DNA of 64,000 nucleotides, from contig CACFYB010000003.1 in the NCBI GenBank assembly GCA_902570425.1, positions 18,134 through 82,133 on the forward strand. Reading direction: 5' to 3'. Of the stretch, positions 24,713-27,699 are shown in pieces. How positions within the stretch are numbered: the first letter of the stretch is position 1; the number at the start of each line of letters is the position of its first letter. Origin of the DNA: an uncultured Pelagibacteraceae bacterium. Its GTDB lineage: Bacteria; Pseudomonadota; Alphaproteobacteria; Pelagibacterales; Pelagibacteraceae. A program made the position numbers and the translations under genes. The notes beneath the pieces are model-generated. The model had not been told where the DNA came from and did no database searches. It worked only from the letters and a program-made list of their open reading frames with translations.

Positions 24713-24797
24713 GGGCGAATGGCGGAACTGGTAGACGCGCACGACTCAAAATCGTGTTTCGCAAGAAGTGAGAGTTCGATTCTCTCTTCGCCCACCA
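24713..24797 (+). tRNA. tRNA-Leu (CAA)
   Basis: GGGCGAA...TTCGCCC acceptor stem, CACGA-CTCAAAA-TCGTG anticodon arm, variable arm, AGTTCGATTCT T-arm, encoded CCA. Confidence 0.95.
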
Positions 24798-24801
24798 GAT
24801 T

Positions 24802-26502
24802 ATGGAATTGAATAATATAAATAGTTTAGTGGAGCTTTTTTTTAAAAAGCACGAAGAAAAAAAAACTCAGATTAATCAACCATTTTTATACTCTTTAAAA
24901 GATCAGGATAAGAATTTTTTAACCTGGGATAAAGTGGAGCAAAATATTCAAATTTTATCTGAATACTTAAATAAAATTTTATTTCCAGGTGATAGATGTG
25001 TTTTATTATCAGAAAATCGACCAGAGTGGTTAATTGCGGATATAGCGATTATGAACTCTGGAGGTGTAACTGTTCCATTATTTACCACATATTCTGAAAG
25101 AGATTATGAGTATATTATAAAAGATTGTAAACCAAAAATATGTATTGTTTCAAATAATGTTCAATATAAAAAAATTGAAAAGTTTATCTCTAAAGAGACT
25201 AAAATTTTATCAATAGAAAATTTTAACGAAAGAATTGAAAGTATTCAAATCATTTTAGAGAAAAAAATTGATAAAAATAATAAGTATATTTCTAAAGGCT
25301 ATAATAGCGGAATTAAAAGAAAAGATCTTGCTTGTATAATTTATACTTCAGGAACAACAGGAAGTCCTAAAGGAGTGATGCTAAGTCATGGAGGCATCTT
25401 ATCTAATTGCGAGGGTGCACAAGATATTTTAAAATTGTTAATTAAAAATGATATTCCAGTTTTTTTAACTTGGCTTCCCCTATCACATTCATATGAACAT
25501 ACAATACAATATGTGCAAATTTCACTTGGTGCAAAAGTCTATTATGCAGAAAGTTTAGAAAAATTATTATCAAACATGGCCATTGCTAAGCCAACCATTA
25601 TGACAGCAGTGCCTAGATTTTATCAAAATTTGTATAGTAAAATTTCGATAAATTTTTTAAAACAAAAAGGCCTAAAAAAAAGATTAGTAGAAAATACAAT
25701 TTTACTTGGAACAAAAATCTTGAATAAAGAAAGACTTAATTTCAAGGAAAGGATAATTAATTTCTTATGTGAAAAGCTTGTGAGAAAAAAAATCAAAAAC
25801 CAGTTTGGTGGAAAATTGAAGGCTTTTGTTTCTGGAGGGGGTGCTTTAGATAAGAAAATTGGTGAGTTTTTAAATTCCGTAGGTTTGCCAACTTTACAAG
25901 GTTATGGATTAACCGAAACTTCACCAGTAGTGAGTTGCAATGTTCCAGGAAAAGTCAAAATTGAAACTGTGGGTCCTCCTTTTAGAACAAACCAGGTTAA
26001 GATAGCTAATGATGGTGAAATTTTAGTAAAGGGAGAAAATGTTATGCTAGGTTATTGGAACAAGAAAAAGGAGACAGAAGATATTATTAAAGATGGCTGG
26101 TTACATACAGGAGATATTGGAGAGATTACCAAAGAAGGGAATTTAAAAATAACTGATAGAAAAAAAGAAATTATAGTTAGTCTAGGCGGTGATAATATTT
26201 CCCCATCCAAAATTGAAAATTTATTATGTCTTAATGAAAAAATTAAGCAAAGTTTTGTTTATGGAGATAAAAAAACTTATTTAGTCGCATTGATTGTGAG
26301 TGAAACAGATATGAACTTTAAAGAAATTGAAATTTATTTAGAAAATTTAAATAAAAGTTTGTCTTCGGTTGAAAAAGTTAAAAAATTTAAATTAATAAAT
26401 GAGGAGTTTACAATTGAAAATGGAATGTTAACACCAACTTTAAAACTAAAAAGAAAAAAAATTTTAAATAAATATAAAGAAGATTTAGAAAAACTTTATT
26501 AA
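24802..26502 (+). CDS. Long-chain acyl-CoA synthetase (AMP-binding)
   Basis: IIYTSGTTGSPKGVMLSH, TLQGYGLTETSPVVSCN, DGWLHTGDIGEI, ITDRKKEIIV. Confidence 0.93.
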   Translation: MELNNINSLVELFFKKHEEKKTQINQPFLYSLKDQDKNFLTWDKVEQNIQILSEYLNKILFPGDRCVLLSENRPEWLIADIAIMNSGGVTVPLFTTYSERDYEYIIKDCKPKICIVSNNVQYKKIEKFISKETKILSIENFNERIESIQIILEKKIDKNNKYISKGYNSGIKRKDLACIIYTSGTTGSPKGVMLSHGGILSNCEGAQDILKLLIKNDIPVFLTWLPLSHSYEHTIQYVQISLGAKVYYAESLEKLLSNMAIAKPTIMTAVPRFYQNLYSKISINFLKQKGLKKRLVENTILLGTKILNKERLNFKERIINFLCEKLVRKKIKNQFGGKLKAFVSGGGALDKKIGEFLNSVGLPTLQGYGLTETSPVVSCNVPGKVKIETVGPPFRTNQVKIANDGEILVKGENVMLGYWNKKKETEDIIKDGWLHTGDIGEITKEGNLKITDRKKEIIVSLGGDNISPSKIENLLCLNEKIKQSFVYGDKKTYLVALIVSETDMNFKEIEIYLENLNKSLSSVEKVKKFKLINEEFTIENGMLTPTLKLKRKKILNKYKEDLEKLY

Positions 26503-26620: not shown

Positions 26621-26649
26621 TTGACATAACGGTTATAAAAAAATAAAAA
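26621..26649 (+). promoter_or_regulatory. Predicted promoter of the small basic-protein gene, with palindrome in the spacer
   Basis: TTGACA (26621-26626), 17-nt spacer, TAAAAA (26644-26649); ATAAC-G-GTTAT palindrome at 26626-26636. Confidence 0.45.
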
Positions 26650-26660
26650 TAACGTAATAG

Positions 26661-26677
26661 CGAATCATTTTGATTCG
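26661..26677 (+). promoter_or_regulatory. 5'UTR hairpin upstream of the small basic ORF
   Basis: CGAATCA-TTT-TGATTCG perfect 7-bp stem, 24 nt upstream of the start codon. Confidence 0.5.
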
Positions 26678-26700
26678 TATAACAAAAAAGGGAGCTAAAG

Positions 26701-26775
26701 ATGCCTAAGAGAAGAAAAAAAGCAAAGAAAGCTAAGAAAGCTAAGAAAAAAGCAAAAAAAAGAAGAAGAAGATAA
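26701..26775 (+). CDS. Highly basic 24-aa Lys/Arg/Ala-rich peptide (histone H1-tail-like), not in the supplied ORF track
   Basis: MPKRRKKAKKAKKAKKKAKKRRRR*; 18/24 residues Lys or Arg; GGGAG RBS upstream, promoter-like elements and a strong terminator downstream. Confidence 0.75.
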   Translation: MPKRRKKAKKAKKAKKKAKKRRRR

Positions 26776-26796
26776 AAACTTAGTATTCTTTATTAA

Positions 26797-26837
26797 AAAC
26801 GCTTCTCATAACGCTATGTGTGAGAGGCGTTTTTTTT
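26797..26837. terminator. Strong rho-independent terminator, probably bidirectional
   Basis: AAACGCTTCTCA-N12-TGAGAGGCGTTTTTTTT; 10-bp stem with one G-U plus T-run; A-tract on the left gives a T-run on the minus strand. Confidence 0.88.
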
Positions 26838-27699
26838 ATTCTTCTACATTTTCGTCTGGCTCTGAAATTGTTTCTTCCTCTTCCACAGCACTTGATGGCT
26901 TATTTGATTGGACTTGGGTTTTTTGTTGCGTATCTAAATTTCTTTTTAAAGCTTTATCTAATTTTTTTTGAGTATCTTCTGCAGAAGAATTAAGAATTAT
27001 TATAAATTCAGATAGAATTCTTTCGTAAGCTTTCTCAAATAATTGTCTTTCACTATAAGATTGATCTACCATTAGATCATCCCCTTTATTTAAATCTCTT
27101 ACAACTTCGGCTAATTCATAAATTTTTCCTGATGAAATTTTAGCCTCATATTCTTGAGCTCTTCTACTCCACATTGATCTTTTAATTTTTGGTTTGCTTT
27201 TTAATATAGAAATACATTTATTAACTTGGTTAATTGTTGCTAAAGGTCTTAAATGTGATTGTTTATTTACGGGGACCATTCCGTTAGCTTTATCTTTTTC
27301 AAATTTTATTATGTAAGTTTCTACATCTATACCACCAATATTAATTTTTTTGAATTCAGTAATTTGACCAACGCCATGTTTCGGATAAACAACATAATCT
27401 TTTATTTTATATTCTCGTTTTTCTGTTTCTTGTTTTTTTACTTTTTTAATTTCTGGTTTTAATTCATTACTTTTGGAAATTCTTAAGCCTTCATTTTTGG
27501 CTTCACTCTTTTCATTTTGTTTTTTAGATTGAACTTTCTTTTTTATTTTTCTTAATTTTTTTATTTTAGGGATAACTTTTTTTTTTATTTTTTTGTTTAA
27601 GACCTTTTTAGTTTTTTTAACTTTAGGTTTGATGGTTTTTTTTTTATTTTTTTTGCTAAATGTTTTCTTTAAAATATTTTTCAAATTTATTTTGTTCAT
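26836..27699 (-). CDS. carD: CarD-family transcriptional regulator with long Lys-rich N-terminal extension
   Basis: [51 protein letters not shown] CarD/CdnL domain starting near residue 97; residues 1-96 very Lys-rich. Confidence 0.88.

Follow-up and report, generated by a model that had tools for sequence, protein, structure and literature searches.

A near-universal gene beside carD in Pelagibacterales encoding a lysine- and arginine-rich peptide that resembles histone H1 tails

The C-terminal tail of the eukaryotic linker histone H1 has a characteristic composition and periodicity of lysine, alanine and proline. Ribosomal proteins of the bTHX, bS22 and bL37/38 types are hyperbasic, ~24-35 aa in length and easily missed by annotation, and the CarD protein of M. 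xanthus contains an HMGA-like domain, a basic tail that binds nucleic acids. The KPAA tails of AlgP and PhaF and the chlamydial protein Hc2 are published DNA binders of a composition similar to that of the peptide examined here (PMC9239181; PMC2848022), and strong RNA binding has also been reported for Hc2 (PMC2848022).

The peptide gene and its conservation beside carD

SAR11 bacteria are the most numerous cells in the ocean. We analyzed a 64,000-nt stretch of contig CACFYB010000003.1 from an uncultured Pelagibacteraceae bacterium (the window). The peptide gene and its surroundings have the following features:

24802..26502, + strand: acyl-CoA synthetase-like gene, the upstream syntenic neighbor, named from its sequence IIYTSGTTGSPKGVML alone
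26621..26626, + strand: -35 element TTGACA, the most promoter-like site in this region
26644-26650, + strand: likely -10 element TAAAAA(T), predicted
26660..26678, + strand: leader hairpin GCGAATCA-TTT-TGATTCGT, which folds and has a conserved CGAATC arm
26690..26700, + strand: ribosome-binding site and spacer GGGAGCTAAAG, with GGGAG at 26690-26694
26701..26775, + strand: gene for the 24-aa polycationic peptide MPKRRKKAKKAKKAKKKAKKRRRR, with ATG at 26701 and TAA stop at 26773-26775
26776..26799, + strand: 3' UTR AAACTTAGTATTCTTTATTAAAAA, kept in most relatives of genus g1
26795..26842, no strand assigned: intrinsic terminator hairpin and T tract, arms conserved and loop variable
26836..27699, - strand: carD (Pfam CarD_C and CarD_TRCF_RID), the convergent neighbor and syntenic marker

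The initial annotation had described a complete gene for a 24-aa peptide with 18 Lys or Arg residues, preceded by TTGACA, a 5' hairpin and GGGAG and followed by a terminator 24 nt past the stop. Start, stop and composition are as described (K/R at 18 of the 24 residues in the translated ORF), and all four elements were located in their expected places. The leader hairpin probably lies at or close to the 5' end of the transcript. There is a single strong terminator-like hairpin of 16 pairs, which starts at 26795 with its C-G part 24 nt past the stop and is apparently common to the peptide gene and carD. Among ATG ORFs of 20 aa or more, none reached 70% K/R in thirty first-order Markov resamplings of the window (maximum K/R fraction 0.50, versus 0.75 in the one such ORF of the real window); the chance expectation of such an ORF is near zero. 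A tRNA gene at 24713-24794 (+) ends a few bases 5' of the acyl-CoA synthetase start at 24802.

A K/R-rich ORF of 24-35 aa convergent to carD was found in 80/80 Pelagibacteraceae loci recovered by a carD search, at a nearly constant distance from carD. In a second, independent carD sample the gene was present in 25/25 Pelagibacterales loci from two GTDB families and 12 genera. This sample comprised 11 loci of the sister family f2 and 14 loci of family f1 (g1, g2, g3, g4, g5, g8, g9, g12); at one of them (L218) the contig end cuts the locus and the 3' part of the ORF is visible. No such neighbor of carD was found in 69/69 loci from other alphaproteobacteria. A peptide search detected the gene in 29 genomes. 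A profile search of the order and class with the peptide alignment was insensitive because the peptide is of low complexity; it missed the window's own genome, and absence in that search is therefore no evidence. Synteny with carD and a DNA pattern of the start region, M-[PA]-K-[KR]-R-K-K, were used in its place. The pattern matched 193 of 298 Pelagibacterales genomes, and the reversed pattern, used as a control, gave almost no matches. The misses examined were variants (MATKKK.../MATKRK...), loci at contig ends, genomes in which carD was not found, or members of the sister family. We concluded that the peptide gene is near-universal beside carD in Pelagibacterales. The start codon, the reading frame and the charge were checked in relatives, where all were conserved, and this attempt at refutation failed.

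Three additional pattern matches (L140:1501, L157:1501 and L160, minus strand) were rejected as gene copies: their M[AP]K[KR]RKK starts are lysine-rich N-termini of unrelated SAR11 metabolic enzymes, named from sequence reading as acetyl-CoA synthetase-like, aminomethyltransferase-like and dihydroxy-acid dehydratase-like. A short frame at the pattern match in L139, MPKKRKKSITFLFAR, was also set aside. Searches for similarity to phage DNA gave chance matches only, and a search of viral contigs with one exact pattern found no match; carriage by SAR11 viruses has no support from that pattern. The literature searched makes no mention of such a peptide or of an H1-like protein in SAR11. Judged from sequence, the gene is real, belongs to the core of Pelagibacterales and is described in none of the sources searched. 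It is shorter than standard annotation cut-offs and has so far been overlooked.

The leader is shared by both families. CGAATC is invariant 5' of the start in 188/188 loci, and this left arm is paired with a sequence further downstream in 91/91 distinct leaders; in g5, g9 and g12 the sequence of the partner arm has changed and the hairpin is retained. In the large majority of the 176 loci collected, the ribosome-binding site and spacer GGGAGCTAAAG immediately precede the start codon. The leader palindrome has a single copy in the window (expected 0.01), and the 922-kb genome contains one perfect copy and one imperfect match; it therefore appears specific to the peptide gene. Rfam gave no match at the gathering score, and a permissive search gave sub-threshold matches of the chance type only. 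None of the SAR11 structured-RNA motifs described in the sections consulted of Meyer et al. 2009 (PMC2704228) sits at the peptide locus. The leaders of f2 and of g9/g12 (L143-L148, L199-L211) carry CCTC or CTCC complementary to the GGAG of the ribosome site, and this pairing is a possible translation switch.

Length variation and constraint on the mRNA

The protein ranges from 21 to 58 aa in f1, where the K/R fraction is 0.60-0.86 across all forms. The composition is extreme in K, R and A, the short forms have no acidic residues, and KKA, KKT and KAAP repeats occur in the family. The 176 collected ORFs have 18 lengths, every one in frame. In the sister family f2, the product of the syntenic gene is 40-99 aa long, has a (KAAPKKK)n repeat like a histone H1 tail and starts with MEELK[IV]IFA[KA]A[KR]KKAKKKAAPKKRKAAPKKKK...; the long forms of genus g12 have the sequence MAKKRKKAAKKKVAKKPAKRKVAKKKPAAKKRKPAAKKKAPAKK.... 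Position, orientation and leader are all shared, which argues that the f1 and f2 genes are orthologous, and this places the 24-mer of the window close to the lower limit of the family's length range. In the carD tree f2 stands apart from f1; lengths are 21-24 aa in g2/g3/g4/g8, 31-58 aa in g5/g9/g12 and 23-35 aa in g1. The tree does not fix the ancestral length, and loss of repeats is plausible since f2 and g9/g12 have long forms. The predicted structure of a 99-aa orthologue consists of separate helices (pTM 0.27) with no globular fold. Neither short nor long forms matched a Pfam or NCBIfam family, a test weakened by low complexity. The likeness to H1/HC1 tails that had been claimed for the 24-mer is strengthened by syntenic orthologues of 34-99 aa with KAAPKKK/KKAPAKK repeats; the longer family and the constraint on the mRNA described below had not been foreseen.

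The locus is protein-coding. A crude omega of 0.05-0.22 was obtained for the collected ORFs. In f2, synonymous differences were.38 for Ala,.47 for Pro,.64 for Leu and.14 for Lys, compared with.49,.59,.66 and.28 in carD; the f2 ORF thus drifts synonymously nearer the carD rate, which confirms coding.

In the short forms, synonymous sites are ~5-15x more conserved than those of rpsL, fusA and carD of the same genomes. When g1 genomes that encode the same peptide were compared, synonymous differences in the ORF were.029 for K, 0 for R,.032 for A and 0 for P, and another set of genomes agreed. The corresponding values (K, R, A, P) were.188,.16,.47 and.32 in rpsL,.186,.179,.50 and.447 in fusA, and.154,.234,.389 and.418 in carD. 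AAG use is.33 in the peptide ORF versus.14 in rpsL, and in the 30-mer class a rare GCG codon is fixed in nearly all CDS. The kept codons differ from those of ribosomal genes, and the constraint is therefore not plain expression-driven codon bias. Per-site diversity in two classes (37 and 34 relatives) is near zero from the hairpin to the terminator arms, including the 3' UTR AACTTAGTATTCTTTA, and zero at TTGACA; the terminator loop, the promoter spacer and the upstream DNA vary. Codon positions 1 and 2 are near-invariant in both classes because the peptides were chosen to be identical, so codon position 3 and the UTRs are the informative sites. The frozen synonymous sites, together with the near-invariant 3' UTR, indicate that the RNA itself is constrained. 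Overlapping-frame coding was rejected as the cause: across 176 loci there is no alternative ATG/GTG frame of at least 15 codons. Avoidance of A-run slippage and of ribosome sliding on AAA codons could account for part of the constraint. The sister family f2 is without the strong nucleotide constraint.

The AAGAAAGCTAAG repeats of the ORF are predicted to pair with the 3' UTR more strongly than synonymous recodings do (mean z -1.7), and in the window AAACTTAGTATTCTTTATTAAAAA may be the partner. This pairing is lost in several genera and in the 35-mer class, and because of its absence from that class it is only a lead. The full transcript folds with a z of -4.0, of which two hairpins supply much. 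Synonymous conservation this extreme points clearly, and in a way open to testing, to a role of the mRNA itself.

Candidate functions of the peptide and its transcript

We favor, at roughly even confidence, an H1-tail-like polycation that neutralizes nucleic acid, most likely chromosomal DNA, and whose mRNA is tightly controlled; sequence and analogy point to this reading. The family consists of K/A(/P)-rich, strongly cationic, low-complexity repeats that vary in length in frame by repeat number (18 CDS lengths; 40-99 aa in f2). The peptide would have no fold of its own and, like the H1 C-terminal tail, Hc2 or the AlgP tail, would use its charge to bind the phosphates of nucleic acids, most likely neutralizing and compacting the chromosome together with HU-family proteins; longer relatives would act in the same way with more repeats. 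All 13 genomes tested carry HU-family genes, and the peptide would therefore work beside HU, not in its place. The charge of the 24-mer is far below that of Hc2 or AlgP, so a very high copy number would be needed; its codons are unlike those of ribosomal genes, and codon bias thus gives no hint of unusually high expression. The mRNA would be controlled post-transcriptionally via the leader hairpin and the constrained ORF and 3' UTR, plausibly with feedback from the peptide on its own mRNA. A bolder and rather unlikely form of this proposal is a chromosome polycation of 21-35 residues whose ~180-nt mRNA also functions as an RNA element, with synonymous sites more strongly frozen than in ribosomal genes, and is perhaps bound by the peptide in a self-limiting control of cell charge balance. 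If the peptide is a chromatin-type polycation, it would rank among the smallest known, with implications for DNA packing in ultra-small, streamlined cells.

Composition is the same for both uses and does not tell a DNA from an RNA target. The main rival, possible if on balance doubtful, is an RNA- or ribosome-binding protein, either a loosely attached ribosomal component comparable to bTHX or bS22-like peptides or an RNA chaperone, with rRNA or mRNA (possibly its own leader) as target. The smallest ribosomal proteins and small basic RNA chaperones overlap the peptide in size and K/R content, which fits this rival, as does the resemblance of the leader hairpin and constrained mRNA to autoregulated r-protein genes; the RNA binding of Hc2 points the same way. 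However, a protein of 21-99 aa that varies by repeat number is unlike a ribosomal protein fitting one site, the KKA/KAAP periodicity is H1-like, the ribosomal families in Pfam/NCBIfam give no match, and the gene adjoins carD outside ribosomal operons. The ~180-nt transcript could also be a regulatory RNA in g1 besides encoding the peptide, an unlikely reading that is compatible with the others. The nucleotide constraint exceeds what coding needs: synonymous change in the ORF is small against that in rpsL, leader, ORF and 3' UTR are near-invariant beside variable loops and upstream DNA, the rare GCG is fixed, the pairing and fold z-scores are negative, and overlapping frames give no explanation. 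Against a regulatory RNA stand the patchy 3' UTR pairing, the share of the two hairpins in the fold score, the weaker constraint in f2, and the part that A-run and AAA avoidance may explain.

The nucleotide constraint would also fit a non-coding RNA with an accidental ORF. This reading is barely credible, as start, SD, stop and frame are kept through 18 lengths, the sister family combines amino acid conservation with synonymous drift, and chance would hardly ever supply such an ORF. Hardly more probable is a partner of polyphosphate or other granules, like the AlgP or PhaF tails on polyP or PHA granules, even though the AlgP KPAA tail sets the spacing of polyP granules (PMC9239181). In a set of 13 mostly complete or near-complete Pelagibacterales genomes, PPK1 was found in 2/13 and PPK2 in 0/13, and the positive controls matched; genomes without PPK1 and PPK2 still keep the conserved peptide gene. 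A general polyphosphate role is unlikely. PPK1 is sporadic, and of the two genomes that have it (L298, L299) one belongs to each of the two families. The initial annotation is supported in part: the H1-tail-like gene that it proposed stands, and its suggested role as a polyphosphate counterion is weakened, since most carrier genomes have no PPK1 and none has PPK2.

Comparison with known polycations and basic proteins

No profile match or flanking conserved domain (Pfam, NCBIfam) links the peptide to Hc2 or AlgP by family descent, and without such a match we make no descent claim; the likeness to known polycations is by analogy. With the linker histone H1 C-terminal tail the SAR11 peptide shares K, A, P composition and periodicity, but it is several-fold shorter and has no winged-helix domain, and common descent is unsupported. 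Like the bTHX, bS22 and bL37/38 types it is short, hyperbasic and easily missed; unlike them it has KKA repeats, a large length variation and no family match. Hc2 (HctB) and Bordetella BpH1 are likewise Lys/Arg/Ala repeat polycations with H1-tail likeness and in-frame size variation (PMC2848022). They are much longer (165-237 aa for chlamydial Hc2 and 182-206 aa for BpH1 versus 21-58 aa for the f1 peptide), and the SAR11 peptide differs in having no Pfam match, in phylum or class and in synteny. The C-terminal KPAA domain of Pseudomonas AlgP/PhaF is a disordered K/A/P tail that is H1-CTD-like and binds DNA (PMC9239181), and the KAAPKKK/KKAPAKK repeats of the long SAR11 forms share this likeness. 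In AlgP/PhaF an N-terminal domain of ~124 aa precedes the tail in the same protein, whereas the SAR11 tail is stand-alone and PPK is mostly missing.

The window carD product has a Lys-rich N-terminal tail of ~65 residues (27505-27699, -), and this tail is fast-evolving in SAR11 CarD (L201, L203, L204, L213, L217). The f2 tails have long runs of VAKKK repeats, and genus g5 has an AT-hook-like RGRPKNP. An apparently H1/HMGA-like tail on CarD thus adjoins an H1-tail-like gene. SAR11 CarD resembles M. xanthus CarD in having a basic tail; the HMGA-like domain is within CarD in M. xanthus, whereas in SAR11 the H1-tail-like polycation is encoded by a separate convergent gene.
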